64,000 bases of DNA from Psychrobacillus glaciei (GTDB lineage Bacteria > Bacillota > Bacilli > Bacillales_A > Planococcaceae). Positions 3,490 to 57,637 of this stretch are shown here, in pieces. Each line of letters begins with the position of its first letter. Position 1 is the first letter of the stretch. The stretch is from the NCBI RefSeq assembly GCF_008973485.1, contig NZ_CP031223.1, positions 2,728,001 to 2,792,000 of the forward strand. The letters are read 5' to 3'. A program made the translations under genes and the position numbers. The notes beneath the pieces are model-generated. The model had not been told where the DNA came from. It saw nothing but the letters and a program-made list of their open reading frames with translations, and searched no databases.

Positions 3490-3671
3490 TCTCTCCTTTT
3501 CATTCAAATTCGCCTTGGCGTATTTGCTCCTGCGCAAAGCTCGTCGCAGAAAACAGTGCGTCCAGATTTTGTATCGAGCTCGCCTCGAAAAACTCCTTTA
3601 CAAAATCTGTGACATCCGCCGGAGGCTGTCTAATTTCAATTAGCATGTTTTTGGCTGATTGAAATTAGACA
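3490..3671. repeat. Repeat-derived hairpin block in the pheS 5' leader
   Basis: Non-coding stretch between the T-box terminator and pheS. It contains two inverted repeats: CAGATTTTGTA with TACAAAATCTG (about 3571-3612) and GTCTAATTTCAAT with ATTGAAATTAGAC (3628-3670, 13-bp stem). The segment around 3525-3555 (TTTGCTCCTGCGCAAAGC on the plus strand, then CTCGTCGCA) recurs in modified form at about 31172-31200 and 18160-18190. This indicates dispersed-repeat material inserted into an essential operon leader. Confidence 0.6.
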
Positions 3672-3672
3672 A

Positions 3673-3939
3673 ATAAAAAAAACCCGCCCCTATAAAAGGG
3701 ACGAGGACTAATTTCGCGGTACCACCCTGATTATTGCACAAAAATAAGTGCAATCACTCAATTCGACTAACGGCTCTACACCGGCACACCTTTACAGCAA
3801 TTGCTGGTCCCGGCGGCAGCTAACGGGGTGAACTTCTATATGCATTCTCCATTTACACTTTCAGTCAAGGTGTAAAATCCCTTTTTCGAATCGTCATATA
3901 TACTTTTCCCGATGACAGCTTTTTATAATTATCAAATTA
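3673..3939 (-). ncRNA. T-box leader of pheST
   Basis: tRNA-sensing antitermination leader on the minus strand. The T-box core GGTGGTACCGCG lies around 3716-3727 and is followed by a terminator with CGTCCC/GGGGCG arms and a run of Ts (3675-3704). A TTC triplet at 3830-3832, followed by A within the stem I region, fits a phenylalanine specifier codon, as expected upstream of pheS. Uncharged tRNA-Phe would stabilise the antiterminator and allow pheST transcription. The specifier assignment is by eye and less certain than the T-box itself. Confidence 0.93.
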
Positions 3940-3945
3940 CATTCT

Positions 3946-3974
3946 ATTATACGGAGTTTAATAAATTTCTTCAA
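3946..3974 (-). promoter_or_regulatory. Sigma-A promoter of pheST
   Basis: TTGAAG (-35, 3969-3974) and a consensus TATAAT (-10, 3946-3951) separated by exactly 17 bp on the minus strand. Transcription would begin near 3939, at the start of the T-box leader. Confidence 0.85.
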
Positions 3975-4004
3975 GTGTGACTTTTTTTATTTTATGCAAT
4001 TGGA

Positions 4005-4690
4005 CATAATGTTGCGCATCATAGATATAATGCGTCTTAGTGACCGCCAGGATTTCCGCTCTAGGTGGACGCTTTCCGAGGGGGGAGCGATGAGCCAGCA
4101 CCGTCGCTTGTGCGCCGTTTGTGCTGTCTCATCTGTCTCCCTGATCCCTTCGGAGTCGCCACCTATCGCTGCAATCCAGCATATTTGCTAACTATTCAGT
4201 GTTACTGTTCACTTATTAATCTTAACTATATTATCTAAAGCAAAATCCAATAAATGATTGGACGAGTCAAATCACGGGGAGATTGCCACTACTTTCTCTT
4301 ATTAAAGCCTTAACTTTGCATTAAATTATATGTCTCCATTGAAAATATTCCGTATGTTGTGCATTATTTATTGGGTGATAATGTCCGGATTAGTAGAGTG
4401 GATAACTTTGCGCAATACTATTGAATAGTTAATATGTTTCTTCTGGGGTGGAGCGAAAGGGCGGCGACTCCTACCGGAGGCCAACAGGATGTTGGTCACG
4501 AAGGTGTTGCCACACGATGCGGCGCTTCTAGCCTTCGACCCTCTGTGGGCAAATGAGCCTTCACAACGAACGCGTAGCGGCGGTGAAGGCTCATCGCTCA
4601 CCCGGTGGAAAGCGTCCGACCTGCAGCGGAAATCCCAGCGGCAACTTTCTTACGACGTAATATATCTATACTGCACTGGACATCTTTTAC
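4005..4690. repeat. Family A element, locus 1: inverted GC-rich arms around an AT-rich centre
   Basis: Two arms in opposite orientation: about 4023-4195 and about 4444-4666. Each arm has the same outer pieces: GATATAnTnCGTC at the outside, a GGATTTCCGC block, GGACGCTTTCC, and on the inner side GGCGACTCC with (T)AGCGA/GGAGCGA. The right arm is about 95% identical by eye to the arm at 42550-42755 over about 200 nt. The 240-bp centre is AT-rich and non-coding. Short open frames here overlap the repeat, lack ribosome sites and are not reported as genes. No terminal repeat like that of loci 2 and 3 was seen. Apart from this element the gap between the pheST promoter and 4716 holds nothing I recognise. 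Confidence 0.75.
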
Positions 4691-18119: not shown

Positions 18120-18317
18120 AAATAAGAAAGTTACACTTTTTACTTAGTATCTTTTCAGACTCCTGCGCCTGTGCGCCTGCGCAAGCTCGTTGCAAACAAG
18201 AGAGTTTGTGGTGGCTGAGGAGCGACCTACTTGTCCAGCACGAGCGGGTCATACAGTCTTTGCGACACGATGTCGCGAACTTAGACTGTATTCCCTTACT
18301 AGGCGCTTACGCTTTTC
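18120..18317 (-). repeat. Dispersed repeat (family B head plus GC-rich module) directly after nrdR
   Basis: Read on the minus strand it begins right after the nrdR stop with AAGAAAAGCGTAAGCGCC, the head of family B copies (compare 31113-31130). It continues through a GC-rich part with ATACAGTCTAAG/CTTAGACTGTAT-type pairing around a GCGACAnnnTGTCGC hairpin (about 18253-18290), then AACGAGCTTGCGCAGG. No coding sequence is supported here. Confidence 0.6.
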
Positions 18318-31099: not shown

Positions 31100-31420
31100 T
31101 ATAAGAAAAGCGCAAGCGCCCTTTAGGTGCACCTTGTCTTCTCTATTTCTAGAGTGCTTTGGACGAAACATTTGCTCCTGCGGTTACTCGTCGCAAAAAG
31201 AATTTTTGTTACACTATTACCTTGGGAATTTTTGTGGAATGAGAATCTTGTGGCGGATGTTTGTCCGTCGACTTCTTGAAATTTGTAGAGACAAGGTACA
31301 TAAGGCTTGGATAATGAGAGGATAAATCATTTCTTATTCTTTTAAAAGCGGACGAAGATACAATTTCGTCCGCTCAGCGCTTCTCTATCTATAGATGCTA
31401 TCTATTTTTGGGGGTTCTAC
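31100..31420 (+). repeat. Family B repeat, copy 1
   Basis: About 320 bp. Head AGAAAAGCGCAAGCGCCC, then ACCTTGTCTTCTCTATTTCT, which can pair with GTAGAGACAAGGT at about 31285-31297, and near the 3' end the hairpin AGCGGACGAA-GATACAA-TTTCGTCCGC (31346-31373). It carries a 35-bp module (TTTGCTCCTGCGG...) that copies 2 and 3 lack, and lacks their GGATC-type internal hairpin. It begins about 40 bp upstream of the MaoC-like gene. Confidence 0.8.
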
Positions 31421-42431: not shown

Positions 42432-43299
42432 CACGTCTGTTGATTAACTATTTTCTTACATTTTAGCAAAAAAGGGCTCATAGAATCCATTTGCATTGAC
42501 ACGTTTTCGGTTTACTTTGGACACTTTAGATATATTGCGTCTTAAGAAATTTGCCGCTGGGATTTTCACTGCAGGGCGGACGCTTTCCGCCGGGTGAGCG
42601 ATGAGCCTTCACCGCCGCTACGCGTTCGTTGTGAAGCCTCATTTTGCTCACTGAGGGTCGAAGGCTAGAAGCGCCACATCGTGTGGCAACACCTTCGTGA
42701 CCAACATCCTGTTGGCCTCCGGCTGGAGTCGCCACCCTTCCGCTTCAATCCACCATATTTGCTAACTAGTCAGTATCACTACTCGCCATTAAATGTTAGG
42801 AAGCATTGTCTAAAAAATCCGATAAATGGATGAATTTTACAAACTAGCAACTAAACGCGACTATCCTCTCATTATAATGGGTTTACTTGGAATGAGATGA
42901 CACTTATTGATTGGACATACGATAAATAATGGGTACTAACAAATAACCACTATCCTTGTGGCACTTTTTAATATTTAGTTGGAATTTTAGAGTATTTAGT
43001 TGGAAAAGCATTTATTCTTCACCTTTTTATACGTAATTACCCTACTTTGAATAACTAGCAAGCTCAATTGGATTGTAGCGAAAGGGAGGCGACTTCTGTG
43101 GGAATAGCACGAGCTGAAGACCCTGGACTAAGCGCAGCGAAGGAAGCGGCTGAAGCCGCGCCCGCGGAAAGCGCCATCCCTGTAGCGAAAATCCCTTCCG
43201 AAGTTTACTAAGTCGCACTATTTTTAAAATATAATTTATTGGTTACCTTTAGTTAATTCACATATGTTATTGGGAATAATCAGCTAATCAACTGACGTG
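42432..43299. repeat. Family A element, locus 2 (868 bp, terminal inverted repeats)
   Basis: Bounded by CACGTCTGTTGATTAAC (42432-42448) and the inverse of CACGTCAGTTGATTAG (43284-43299). Inside, a left GC-rich arm (about 42527-42760) and a right arm in opposite orientation (about 43070-43225) flank a 310-bp AT-rich centre. The left arm nearly equals the right arm of locus 1. The right end supplies the last four codons and stop of dnaE. A frame within the left arm (starting MATPAGGQQDVG) is repeat-encoded and not considered a gene. Confidence 0.82.
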
Positions 43300-49886: not shown

Positions 49887-50978
49887 ATGAAACAAGTAGA
49901 AAAAATTCAAAGTTATTTACAATCAAATAATATTGATGCAGCTTTTATAACAACTCCAGACAATGTTTTTTATTTTACTGGATTTAGAAGTAATCCACAT
50001 GAACGATTACTTGGTGTATTAATCTATAAAGAAGCAACCCCTTTTATTATTTGTCCTAAAATGGAAATTCCAGATGCAGCTGCAACAGGATGGTCTGGAA
50101 AAATTGTTGGCCATCAAGATACGGAAAATGCTTGGGATATTGTTGTTCAAACAATTCAAGATAATATAGGTACTATTAATACTTTAGCAATTGAAAAGGC
50201 TCATTTAACTGTAGAGCGTCAAGAAGCTATTCAAGAGAGAATTCCTTCCATTCAAATTTCAAGAATCGATGAAAAGATAAATGAGCTACGCGTAATTAAG
50301 ACTGAAGATGAATTAGTTAATATGCGAAAAGCTGCTGAGCTTGCCGATTACGCAATTGAAGTTGGTTGCAAAGAAATTGCGGAAGGAAAAACTGAGTTAG
50401 AAATATTAACGGCTATTGAGTTAGCGGTAAAAGACAAAGGCGCATCTCAAATGTCATTTGATACAATGGTCCTAAGTGGTCCTAAAACAGCTTCTCCTCA
50501 TGGTAAGCCAGGTGATCGCAAAATCCAAAAAGGGGATTTAATTTTATTTGACCTGGGTGTTATTTACAACGGTTATTGCTCTGACATAACAAGAACAGTA
50601 GCTTTTGGAGAACCTTCCGCTGAGAAACGTGAAATTTATGAAACTGTTCGTCGTGCCGAAGAAGACGCTGTAAATGCAGTGAAACCAGGAGTAACCGCAA
50701 TGGCTCTTGATAAAATTGCACGCGATGTTATTACGGAAGCGGGTTACGGTGAGTATTTCACTCATCGCTTAGGACATGGGCTTGGAATTTCCGTGCACGA
50801 ATTCCCATCCATCACTGGTGTTAACGAGATGAAATTAGAAACTGGTATGGTATTCACAATTGAACCTGGCATTTACCATCCTGAAATCACGGGCGTACGA
50901 ATAGAAGACGACGTTGTGGTTACAGAGGATGGCGTAGAAGTACTTACTAAGTTTCCTAAAGAATTAATTGTTTTATAA
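49887..50978 (+). CDS. M24-family Xaa-Pro aminopeptidase/dipeptidase
   Basis: 363 residues. A creatinase-like N-domain (1-130) and pita-bread catalytic domain with the five metal ligands: FDLGV, CSDITRT, THRLGHGLG, FTIEPGIY and RIEDDVVV. It cleaves Xaa-Pro bonds in peptides in the cytoplasm. Plus strand between ytkL and a large repeat region. AAAGAGG precedes the ATG. Confidence 0.93.
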   Translation: MKQVEKIQSYLQSNNIDAAFITTPDNVFYFTGFRSNPHERLLGVLIYKEATPFIICPKMEIPDAAATGWSGKIVGHQDTENAWDIVVQTIQDNIGTINTLAIEKAHLTVERQEAIQERIPSIQISRIDEKINELRVIKTEDELVNMRKAAELADYAIEVGCKEIAEGKTELEILTAIELAVKDKGASQMSFDTMVLSGPKTASPHGKPGDRKIQKGDLILFDLGVIYNGYCSDITRTVAFGEPSAEKREIYETVRRAEEDAVNAVKPGVTAMALDKIARDVITEAGYGEYFTHRLGHGLGISVHEFPSITGVNEMKLETGMVFTIEPGIYHPEITGVRIEDDVVVTEDGVEVLTKFPKELIVL

Positions 50979-51271
50979 GAAAATCGTAGACGTCTTTTAA
51001 GTGAATCTTGTCTTTTCTATTTCTCAAGTACTTTAGACTAAGCATCAACTACACTATTACCCTTGGAAATTTTGTGGATCGTGAAGTGACTATGTCACTT
51101 CACGATCCACTTTTTTTCGGTAATCTTGTGGCAGATGTTTATCCGTTGCCCTCTTGAAATATATAAAGACAAGGTGCATTTGGTTTGGATAATGAGCGAT
51201 AAGATGCTATCCCAATCTTTTAAAAGCGGACTAAGATACAATTTCGTCCGCCCAGCACTTCTTTATAAATA
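50977..51271 (+). repeat. Family B repeat, copy 2, interrupted at its tail
   Basis: Starts at the peptidase stop codon. Contains CTTGTCTTTTCTATTTC pairing with AAAGACAAG at about 51165-51173, a perfect 15-bp hairpin GGATCGTGAAGTGAC-TAT-GTCACTTCACGATCC (51076-51108), and the terminal hairpin GCGGACTAAGATACAATTTC with GTCCGC (about 51226-51251). Its continuation CTATCTATTTTT...GGTTCCAC resumes at 52084, on the far side of the family A element. Confidence 0.85.
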
Positions 51272-52074
51272 CAGGTCTGTTGATTAACCAAAAATGACCA
51301 GTAAATTACCATTTAACTTTATCTATGTAGCATCTATAAAAACTAGCATCGCCTTAGTTAAAGTAGGCAAAGAACTCATTGTTTATAAAGTGCGTCGCAA
51401 GAAAGTTACCCCTGGGATTTCCGCTACAGGGCGGACGCTTTCCACCGGGTGAGCGATGTGCCATCACCGTCGCATGCGCGCCGCTTGTGAGGGCACATCC
51501 GACTCCCTCATCCGGCAGGAGTCGCCGCCCTTCCGCTACAATCTAATAGTGCTTGTTACTTATTCAAAAATGATGAATTAAATCCAGTCTTATGTTGTAT
51601 TTTCTATAGGTAAAAATCTATGATTCGTTGAATGTGACAAACTATCTAGTGATTGGTATCGAATTATTACAAGCGATCATTGCTTGAATGGCTATTAGTA
51701 ATATTATGCAACTATACTAGGGTGACTCAGGTAATAAGGGGAATACTTTTTATTATTTGAAATGGGCTTTCATTATATAGAAAAGCCAAATACTTATGCC
51801 GTAGCGCTGCCTAAGCCGCATGAGCCGAAGTCATGAGACCCACTCGGGCGCAGCACGAGTTGGCTCATGCAAGGTGCAGCAAGCGCGAAGGCTCAGCGGT
51901 TCTTGTGGTACAACGCACTATATCTAAAATTTGTTCTATATTATATACGTATCTCTGTGTGACTGAAATTGTACCTTCGTCCAAACCGAAACGAAAACAA
52001 ACAATTTCTAACGAAGATTTTAATGCTTTCCTTACAAGTATTTTGTGTAAGAAAGTGGTTAATCAACAGACGTG
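51272..52074. repeat. Family A element, locus 3 (803 bp), inserted in a family B repeat
   Basis: Bounded by CAGGTCTGTTGATTAACC (51272-51289) and the inverse of CACGTCTGTTGATTAACC (52057-52074). Left arm about 51394-51545, right arm about 51800-51930 (more diverged, with GTGCGTTGTACCA in place of the usual outer block), AT-rich centre between. The flanks share ATAAATA at 51265-51271 and 52077-52083. No coding frame with a ribosome site inside. Confidence 0.83.
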
Positions 52075-52292
52075 AGATAAATACTATCTATTTTTTTCAG
52101 GTTCCACCTGCTCGCCGATTCATATATACTGAGGACGGTAAAAGTATAAAACAATTAAGATCGAGCCATTGCAGGATTAGAGGCATAACTTAATTATCCA
52201 GAGTTCATATGCATCTAGAACTTACCTAACAGTCAATTACATACACATTCTTATCTAATAAGAAAAACAAAATCCTTTTATAGGGTGCTTTT
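52075..52292. repeat. Tail of family B copy 2 and spacer before crcB
   Basis: 52084-52115 continues the family B tail (CTATCTATTTTT, then GGTTCCACCTGC; compare 31398 and 55173). The rest, to the crcB stop, is AT-rich with no recognised feature. Confidence 0.6.
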
Positions 52293-54871: not shown

Positions 54872-54879
54872 ATTTCACG

Positions 54880-55200
54880 AAAAACGCAAGCACCTTTTAA
54901 GTGCATTTGGTCTTCTCTATTTCTCGAGTAATTTGGACGAAACATCAGCTACACTATTAACGTTAGAGTTATGGATCATGAAGTGACTACGTCACATCAT
55001 GATCCATTTTTTTCGGTAATCTTGTGGCTAGTGTTTGTCCGTCGCCCTCTTGGAATATGTAAAGACATGATGCATTTGTTTTGGATAATGAGAGATAAGA
55101 TGCTTACTTACTCTTTTTAAAGGCGGACGAAGATACAATTTCGTCCGCTCAGTACTTCTTTATCAATGGAAGCCATCTATTTTTCTAAAGTTCCACTAGC
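54880..55200 (+). repeat. Family B repeat, copy 3
   Basis: Starts 8 bases after the stress protein stop: AAAACGCAAGCACC, then TCTTCTCTATTTCTCGAG, a hairpin GGATCATGAAGTGAC-TAC-GTCACATCATGATCC (54973-55005), and the end hairpin GGCGGACGAA-GATACAA-TTTCGTCCGC (about 55122-55148). It lines up with copy 2 along its whole length. Confidence 0.85.
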
Positions 55201-55471
55201 GCTATTCAGCTACCCAATGAATTATGTATACTTTTAGATGTTAGAAATAAAAGGAAAACTTGCAGAGGAAATTAACCTTTTCATCATATTCCAATTCAGA
55301 TTGCTTTATTACTCTTTGAGAAAAGCTTAAGCATCCTCCTTTAAGAGCATCTTGTTTTTACTTTACTCAATTACTCTGTACTAAAAACCGTTTCACTATT
55401 AACTTGCTCCACTTTTCTACTGACCTACTTTGTTTCATAAAAAAAATCCATAAGAGTTGATTAAGTGTTTA
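55201..55471. other. Intergenic stretch with a decayed family B head
   Basis: GAAAAGCTTAAGCATCCTCC (about 55319) followed by TTTAAGAGCATCTTG and CACTATTAAC resembles the first 90 bases of family B, strongly diverged. No gene seen. Confidence 0.45.
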
Positions 55472-55998: not shown

Positions 55999-57637
55999 CA
56001 TAGCCGTGTACTTAAGAAGAATAGTAAGTTTCAAATTATATGTTTTTACTATTTTTCGAGAAATTTAATGTTGCAAATGAGTGTTTTGAGGTTAGAATAA
56101 GATATGTTCTAAAAAAAGAACATAACAAATAAACCCAAAATAAAGCAGTTTCCAACTACCTTTAATTTGGATTTTTTGTGAATTTAATCAAACAAATAGA
56201 GTGTGTGGTTCTGGCTTTGTCGATTTTAAGTTGAATTTTTCTGTGGTAGGAATAAGACTCTTAAAGAACAAACTCCAGCTTCGTGCACTTTTTTTGCTTT
56301 CTAAAACGAGTCGGTTTATCATTCTAGAAATCATACGGATCGTTAAATCTTCACTAATAAATTTATTTAATGTTTTCCAAACTACCTTTCGAATAAAACC
56401 TGTGGTTATCATGCTTAACAGCATGACAATACATTGGCAATATACGTGGCATAACCAACGTTCCATTTTCATGTCTTTTATTTGATGGATTTTCAAATGG
56501 GATTTCCATGTTTTAAAACGAAGTTCAATCTGCCATCGAACACGATATAACTGAGTTATTTTTTCAACGGAAATAGTAGGTGGTAAATTAGTTATGTAAA
56601 TAGTTAGTCCAGAAAGTGCAGCTACATTTTCTTTTGGAATAGAGCGGCATTTTTTTTGATAACTTCTAATTCTTTTGTTTATATTTTTTGCTTCTTGCAC
56701 TTCATCATGGCGATAAATAACACAACGTGTGGGCATTTTTTTATGTCTTCCCACATAAATTTGATTCCACTCTCGATATTGTCCCCTAGGTAATGTTTTT
56801 AATTCTTCTTCCATGTATAAACGCTGATAGCGTTGGTTTTCAATAAAGGAACCATCTTGATGACGAGGTGGATTATCAACCTCTACAAAGAACTGCGAAT
56901 CCATTCTAGCTCTTGAAAGATAAAAGGCTTCAGATTGATGAATTTGTTCAAATAAATCCAAATGATAGTAACCTAAATCCTGCAAGAATAAATCCCCTTT
57001 TTCTAAACTAGCTAGTCGTTCGAATCCTGCGGGACTGTCTGCGGATTTCCCTTCATCTAAATTAAACCAAAGTAATTTCTCACTTAAGTAATCAAATTCA
57101 AATTGAATTTTAGCACCAGCATCTCTCGTTCCTTTATACTCATTTTCATATGATTTAGGGAGTTTAAAGCTTGTACTATCGATAATTCGAATCCGTTTGT
57201 ATGGGGAATCTTTCTTTAATTTCATTTCAGCCAATGGCGCCTGAAGTTGATATTGAAATAGACGGTCAAATAGGGCCTTAAAAAAGTCGACAGCTTCAGT
57301 AGTGAATCGTTTATTTAAACCTGATTTAGTAATATTTATATGATGTTTTTCTAAATCGTGGCATAAATTATTTAATGAGGGCTGAACAAGATTAGCATTT
57401 TGTCGAAAGACAAGTGATAAAAAGTCGGAAGCTGAAAATTGCCGCTCCCGTTTAATAAATCCTGTTTCCTTCGCTAGTTGTTCAATATTTTTAGGTAGAA
57501 AAAGTTGAAAACATTCTTTTAAATATAAATTATGTTGATTGTACATAAAAGCCTCCTCTAAGTTGTCGTTTTAATACTAACTTAAAAGAGGCACTTATTA
57601 TGAAAAATAATTGAATTAGCTTAAGTACACGGCTATG
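55999..57637 (-). mobile_element. IS231-like element of the IS4 family, complete
   Basis: 1639 bp with perfect 18-bp terminal inverted repeats, CATAGCCGTGTACTTAAG (55999-56016) and its complement (57620-57637). The CAT...CTTAAG form is that of IS231 ends. It is flanked by a 10-bp direct repeat AGGTGGCGAC (55989-55998 and 57638-57647), in the 10-12 bp range of IS231. One intact transposase inside. The perfect ends and duplication imply recent insertion. Confidence 0.95.
56188..57546 (-). CDS. IS4-family DDE transposase
   Basis: 452 residues, intact. The IS4 signature Y-x2-R-x3-E-x6-K is present as YRVRWQIELRFKTWK near residue 340, with earlier acidic positions in IRIIDSTSFKLP and FLQDLGYYHL. 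GGAGG is 5 nt before the ATG. No frameshift, so the element is probably active. Confidence 0.95.
   Translation of the reverse strand: MYNQHNLYLKECFQLFLPKNIEQLAKETGFIKRERQFSASDFLSLVFRQNANLVQPSLNNLCHDLEKHHINITKSGLNKRFTTEAVDFFKALFDRLFQYQLQAPLAEMKLKKDSPYKRIRIIDSTSFKLPKSYENEYKGTRDAGAKIQFEFDYLSEKLLWFNLDEGKSADSPAGFERLASLEKGDLFLQDLGYYHLDLFEQIHQSEAFYLSRARMDSQFFVEVDNPPRHQDGSFIENQRYQRLYMEEELKTLPRGQYREWNQIYVGRHKKMPTRCVIYRHDEVQEAKNINKRIRSYQKKCRSIPKENVAALSGLTIYITNLPPTISVEKITQLYRVRWQIELRFKTWKSHLKIHQIKDMKMERWLCHVYCQCIVMLLSMITTGFIRKVVWKTLNKFISEDLTIRMISRMINRLVLESKKSARSWSLFFKSLIPTTEKFNLKSTKPEPHTLFV

Follow-up and report, generated by a model that had tools for sequence, protein, structure and literature searches.

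An 803-bp block at positions 51272-52074 of the window, the 64-kb stretch of Psychrobacillus glaciei DNA analyzed here (G000:C1:2728001-2792000; 36% GC, from a genome of 4.35 Mb), is very probably a non-autonomous, long MITE that an IS4-family transposase, of the IS5377 type, mobilized in trans through a cut-and-paste mechanism. The block has inserted into a copy of another repeat, family B, and its interior holds a nested GC-hairpin unit that may be mobile in its own right. The features that define the element and its insertion site are as follows (window positions).

51272..52074, + strand: non-autonomous (MITE-like) element of 803 bp with IS5377-type ends
51272..51290, + strand: left terminal inverted repeat, CAGGTCTGTTGATTAACCA, from sequence reading and end pairing
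52056..52074, - strand: right terminal inverted repeat, CACGTCTGTTGATTAACCA on the - strand, from sequence reading and end pairing
51263..51271, no strand assigned: left target-site duplication, TTATAAATA, abutting the left end directly
52075..52083, no strand assigned: right target-site duplication, AGATAAATA, abutting the right end directly and matching the left copy at 7/9 positions
50979..51271, + strand: 5' part of the family B repeat that the element splits, which aligns with other B copies
52084..52150, + strand: 3' tail of the split family B repeat, in agreement with the tails of 40 other B copies
31105..31420, + strand: uninterrupted family B copy, from the alignment of B copies
54879..55205, + strand: uninterrupted family B copy, from the same alignment
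51074..51110, + strand: terminator-like structure within family B, a hairpin and then a T run (-30.3 kcal/mol, z -9.06, folded as 51070-51120), just 3' of the ORF at 49887-50978

The boundaries that a first-pass annotation had proposed for this block are exact to the base. Its first base is C (51272) and its last is G (52074), and the terminal inverted repeats are identical at 18 of 19 positions. The same annotation had described the block as devoid of a transposase, and indeed the longest stop-to-stop frame spans 83 codons and a transposase match search, combined with inspection of the frames, returned nothing for this block or for the 37 listed elements introduced below. The whole element folds more stably than all 20 of 20 shuffled versions (z -5.32).

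A direct repeat, ATAAATA, had been read as a possible decayed target duplication whose right copy lies two bases off the element. A direct repeat does flank the element, but the offset is not needed: a 9-bp duplication with two changed bases abuts both ends. Under this reading the B tail lacks four bases next to the right copy, and an alternative alignment of the right flank yields only about five duplicated bases. Taken alone, a 7/9 duplication is not decisive. We adopt the 9-bp length because the duplications of the family as a whole are 9 bp long.

Removal of the element restores the repeat that it interrupts. When position 51271 is joined to position 52084, a continuous B tail results, as judged by alignment with 40 other B copies from the sampled parts of the same genome. 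The sequence TATCTATTTTT is present within two mismatches in 40/40 of these other tails, a TTCCACC-like block in 38/40, and the far end, ATTCATGTATACTGTGGACGGTAAAA, within six mismatches in 21/40; the joined copy has all three. Since the other B copies of this genome continue in the same manner, we assign the tail at 52084 to the B copy, as had been proposed, on the strength of 40 paralogous copies rather than of an orthologous empty site. The two uninterrupted B copies with which the comparison began, placed near 31100-31420 and 54880-55200, are likewise present. Among 18 genus-mates, we located the neighboring peptidase gene in all 18 and the FluC-like gene in 14. None of them carries a B tail or an outer element at the corresponding locus, and none has an orthologous B copy free of the element. 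One genus-mate (L407) has GC modules between the peptidase and FluC genes. In another (L403), where no FluC gene was detected, a stretch resembling B lies about 0.5 kb downstream in reverse orientation.

Family B may itself serve as a terminator, to judge from two of its copies. The B copies at 50979 and 54879 begin no more than 10 bases past an ORF end, and a hairpin with a T run is found in both (one folded, the other read by eye). Family B also has stretches in common with the interiors of some outer elements.

The ends of the 803-bp element recur throughout the genome, as the first-pass annotation had predicted. The end motif has 69 genome matches at up to three mismatches, compared with six for a reversed-pattern control. 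We paired ends in a sample of 0.36 Mb in 94 blocks, chosen for such ends, related DNA, or matches to a transposase or to the Bacillaceae-1 RNA (RF01690), and took as candidates those pairs in which at least 12 of 19 end positions are alike. Among the 73 candidate pairs, the 9-bp duplication is perfect in 14, 8/9 in seven and 7/9 in ten. Thus 31/73 reach at least 7/9, compared with 0.8% of 5256 cross-pairs that combine the left and right flanks of different pairs. The 42 pairs that fall below 7/9 include many overlapping or chance pairings and perhaps some old copies. Looser pairing over somewhat more sequence gives 42 pairs with at least 7/9. From these we listed 37 elements by hand, retaining 34 of the 42 (eight overlapping or doubtful pairs were dropped) and adding three with weaker duplications, namely 2770432 and 3089689 with 6/9 and 3242551 with 4/9. 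The listed elements are 370-1214 bp long, and their longest stop-to-stop frames span 51-134 codons. Pairs of such ends with 9-bp duplications also occur in other Bacillales.

MITEs are usually shorter than about 600 bp. The outer element resembles them in its many dispersed copies, and its length of 803 bp exceeds their usual size. In two genus-mates (G010 and G015), paired ends lie about 250-300 bp apart. The right-end 99 bp are ∼79% identical in two elements that lack GC blocks. We considered whether this conserved right end could be the tail of a protein. The frame in question (in L072) has no Pfam or NCBIfam match and the frames of the aligned copies are broken, and we therefore take the right end to be shared DNA. 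A frame at positions 3042-3347 of L072 resembles an IS1182-type transposase fragment; it adjoins the right end of an outer element, and the locus is perhaps a composite of two dead elements.

The GC profile across the element (0.32, 0.56, 0.30, 0.54 and 0.33) agrees with the earlier description of inverted GC-rich arms (0.56 and 0.54) around an AT-rich center (0.30). What that description missed is that the arms belong to a second, nested unit with ends of its own. This unit and its relatives in the window are listed here.

51382..51926, + strand: nested inverted GC-hairpin unit, with ends related to TAGATATA-TGCGTC (13/18 end bases alike)
51400..51549, + strand: left GC-rich arm, a strong hairpin (-62.4 kcal/mol, z -3.58; 0/200 shuffles as stable)
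51790..51925, + strand: right GC-rich arm, not clearly above chance stability (-50.6 kcal/mol, z -1.30; 18/200 shuffles as stable)
4022..4668 (G000:C1:2732022), + strand: GC-hairpin unit that stands free and lacks outer ends; it shares 644/651 positions with the unit at G000:C1:2466000 and holds a Bacillaceae-1 RNA at 4481-4547 on the - strand
42432..43299, + strand: sister element of 868 bp with a duplication of only 6/9, a nested GC unit at 42527-43226 and a Bacillaceae-1 RNA at 42649-42715

At least one GC-rich block is present in 34 of the 37 listed elements, the exceptions being 1823801, 2607663 and 3267031. In many elements these blocks form a unit bounded by TAGATATA-TGCGTC ends (35 candidate pairs, some of them due to chance), often together with the Bacillaceae-1 RNA. 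The motif alone is unspecific, with 74 genome matches at up to two mismatches compared with 38 for a control. The units were also compared with TA-targeting (IS630/Tc1-like) elements. They begin with TAGATATA and end with its complement, such that a flanking TA is indistinguishable from the end sequence; no duplication longer than TA was seen at the three free copies.

Ten GC units were chosen for alignment, and eight of them proved to be 94-100% identical. Three of the eight are free (605475, 2466000 and 2732022) and five are nested (1356043, 1247700, 1007686, 3089768 and 3242661); the units at window positions 42527 and 51382 are only 58-62% like the eight. The five nested units sit in outer elements of two unlike subfamilies. 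Among four of the carriers the outer flanks show 67-87% similarity; the fifth, 3242551, resembles them in its terminal repeat alone (best blastn E 0.03). Its flanks instead match those of the element at 51272-52074, with identities of 84% across 113 bases and 79% across 110, and the interiors of these two sister carriers differ (59%). The disagreement between flank and interior identities thus reveals that sister carriers hold unlike interiors and that unlike carriers hold the same one. The poor duplication of 3242551 (4/9) weakens this carrier as evidence on movement of the GC unit.

Judging from these alignments, either the GC unit spread recently or its copies were exchanged by conversion, and the free copies with their sharp, unrelated flanks favor movement over conversion. 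The free units at window position 4022 and at G000:C1:2466000 are 266 kb apart and have unrelated flanks, and the unit at 4022-4668 probably reflects a recent move. We tentatively suggest, as a reading that falls a little short of probable, that there are two layers of mobility, with the RNA-bearing GC-hairpin unit acting as a non-coding cassette, itself mobile, that inserts into unrelated IS5377-type carriers or takes the place of their interiors. If so, RF01690, which Rfam lists as a small RNA, would in this genus largely be the cargo of selfish DNA or its hallmark, with the outer elements as its landing platforms. No DNA match to the element or to the GC unit was found on plasmids.

The Bacillaceae-1 RNA, RF01690, is listed in PMC2864571. 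It has 68 matches in the genome, 67 of them above the cut-off, and all eight near-identical GC units hold one. Twelve of the 68 lie inside outer elements with a duplication of at least 7/9. An end found by the genome-wide motif scan is present in ten of these 12 elements; only inspection of the surroundings of RNA loci revealed the remaining pair, 1007612 and 727005, the latter doubtful. These ten compare with 0.44 expected for about 28 kb of elements (p about 3e-11). Three further matches lie in elements with weaker duplications. A family B match is present within 500 bases of 30/68 RNA matches, on the opposite strand in 27 of the 30. Outside this genome, RF01690 was found in one element with a complete end pair in each of the genus-mates G010 and G015 (L220 and L223; 20 of 22 such loci scanned) and in none of the non-autonomous elements at 12 loci from other genera.

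The Bacillaceae-1 RNA occurs in sister elements and in free GC units, and a covariance-model search found no match above the gathering score within 51272-52074 itself. Moreover, at least 16/68 RF01690 matches have no element, B copy or GC module nearby by the criteria used here. Not every copy of the RNA is therefore explained by these associations. One of the matches that stand apart, at window positions 18235-18300, precedes GGCGCTTACGCTTTTC, whose complement is a variant of the B start motif. An arrangement in which family B and the Bacillaceae-1 RNA form one unit bounded by GAAAAGCGCAAGCGCC found no support: of the 68 RNA loci, 52 were tested, and the motif lies on the left in 17 of these, on the right in seven and on both sides in none.

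These observations bear on whether the elements have been domesticated, with the GC hairpins or the Bacillaceae-1 RNA serving the host and copies being kept for that purpose. The strong hairpin of the left arm is compatible with such a role, as is the CsrA binding suggested for the reverse complement of RF01690 in PMC4333381, where the strand of RF01690 is doubted. Domestication is nonetheless unlikely, given that sister carriers differ in their interiors, that the element at 51272-52074 has no RF01690 match at the gathering score, and that neither B, outer element nor GC module was detected between the peptidase and FluC genes in 13 of the 14 genus-mates with both. The element is most likely without function for the cell.

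The identity of the mover can be approached through ISs with the same ends. A collection of species genomes was scanned for CACRNSTGTTGATTAACCA, which gave at least 120 stretches; 80 were taken as loci, of which 76 were considered to be from Bacillales. After end pairing, 10/80 loci have 9/9 duplications among the matches listed, including two (L304 and L317) in which the pairs are unusually long and may be due to chance. The ten include at least two ISs. The IS from Paenibacillus brasilensis (L246) is 1248 bp long and encodes a 373-aa IS4-family transposase, and that from Planococcus (L259) is 1253 bp long with an interrupted transposase frame. Profile searches with the L246 protein hit DDE_Tnp_1 (E 3.6e-33) as well as NF033592, a model of the IS4 family (E 8.7e-65), and its best plasmid matches include Geobacillus proteins annotated as IS5377 (55.8% identical over 87%). 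An IS5377-type IS of Geobacillus thermodenitrificans (L445) has the ends CAGGCGTGTTGATTATCC and CACGAGTGTTGATTATCC and a 9/9 duplication; one from G. stearothermophilus (L444) has the same ends and flanks that agree at only 3/9. Such ends with 9/9 duplications were also found at three of 13 further loci with related transposases (Planococcus lenghuensis L361, L362 from G074 and L364 from G023).

The 14 ends of seven such ISs match the consensus of the 74 listed ends of this genome at 14-18 of 19 positions. IS5377 and its relatives thus resemble the 803-bp element in their ends and in their 9-bp duplications, and differ from it in being about 1250 bp long with a transposase gene. A Y..R...E......K motif like that of the IS4 family is present in five of the seven and was not found in the longest frames (284 and 156 codons) of the other two. 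The IS4Sa subgroup is tabulated with CA------T ends, duplications of 8-10 bp and lengths of 1150-1750 bp (PMC2266710, Table 1). These ends, duplication length and size fit the IS partner, as does the YREK-type motif; the placement is by features and not by tree, and IS5377 is unnamed in the main text of that paper. MITEs, and the IS231-MIC231 cassettes of Bacillus cereus, are likewise non-autonomous, with IS4-family ends and modular content. They differ in having other ends, and the element studied here further differs in holding a second non-coding hairpin unit in its interior and in that no partner was found in its genome.

Movement in trans is supported indirectly, by analogy with these transposase-bearing ISs that share the ends and the duplication length. 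An IS5377-type transposase would recognize ends of the CACGTCTGTTGATTAACCA form and make a 9-bp staggered cut, the 803-bp element would move by cut-and-paste, and the partner would since have been lost from this genome. The L246 protein query found matches in 28 of 101 genomes. No IS5377-type transposase was found in this genome, where the five matches (best E 4e-5) fall on copies of an IS231-like IS and on a broken copy of it. Genus-mates have kept remnants, namely an IS5377-like remnant beside an end of the matching kind in G015 (L378) and IS5377-like pieces on contig C48 of G010. Because the transposase was not found here and remnants are kept in these relatives, the outer elements of this genome are probably orphans.

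A transposase that is at hand belongs to the IS231-like IS at window positions 55999-57637, which encodes a 452-aa protein and has the ends CATAGCCGTGTACTTAAG. It has four copies that are at least 99% identical over about 1640-1660 bp, all in GC repeats, and a broken copy at G000:C1:479198-479913; it looks recently active and target-specific. An IS4-family transposase is thus available in this genome, and the resident IS might have moved the 803-bp element. This is very unlikely, since its ends match the outer-element consensus at only 8/19 positions, all four copies sit in GC repeats, and IS231 duplications are tabulated as 10-12 bp (PMC2266710, Table 1), compared with 9 bp here. End match and duplication length together speak against it as the mover, and likewise set the element apart from IS231 and MIC231, for which ends beginning with CAT and a 10-12 bp duplication are given. 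An IS1182-type transposase, suggested by a fragment in L072, was also rejected, as no convincing facing end pair was found among 34 PF05598-or-nearby transposase loci in this genome and its relatives. That the block arose by chance juxtaposition or by recombination of repeats, and never transposed as a unit, is scarcely credible, for although the genome is rich in shared repeat modules and B stretches recur inside some outer elements, the 9-bp duplications far exceed the control and the joined B tail is continuous.

The assignment of the outer element as a long modular MITE of the IS5377 branch is thus well supported, and its mechanism is an ordinary one. A large repeat family with relatives in other Bacillales is thereby assigned to a named transposase branch, which makes its ends and the length of its duplications predictable. 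More unusual is the nested unit with its RNA, which seems to move on its own. Its near-identity across unlike carriers, with sister carriers differing inside, makes it a testable example of a mobile non-coding element housed within another. RF01690, a catalogued RNA of unknown function, is placed in a mobile setting, and its copy number and spread may reflect transposition and not regulation. We found no description of this element in open-licence papers on the end motif, MITEs, IS4, IS5377 or RF01690.

Two observations concern the wider distribution of these ends. Three viral contigs (L477, L480 and L481) carry facing pairs of outer-type ends 1.1-1.3 kb apart, as expected for the IS itself, and because of this IS-like spacing phages may spread the IS. 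A contig filed under Arthrobacter beigongshangensis (L270) has a 727-bp outer element at 3561-4287 with a perfect 9-bp duplication, and may be misfiled Bacillales DNA.
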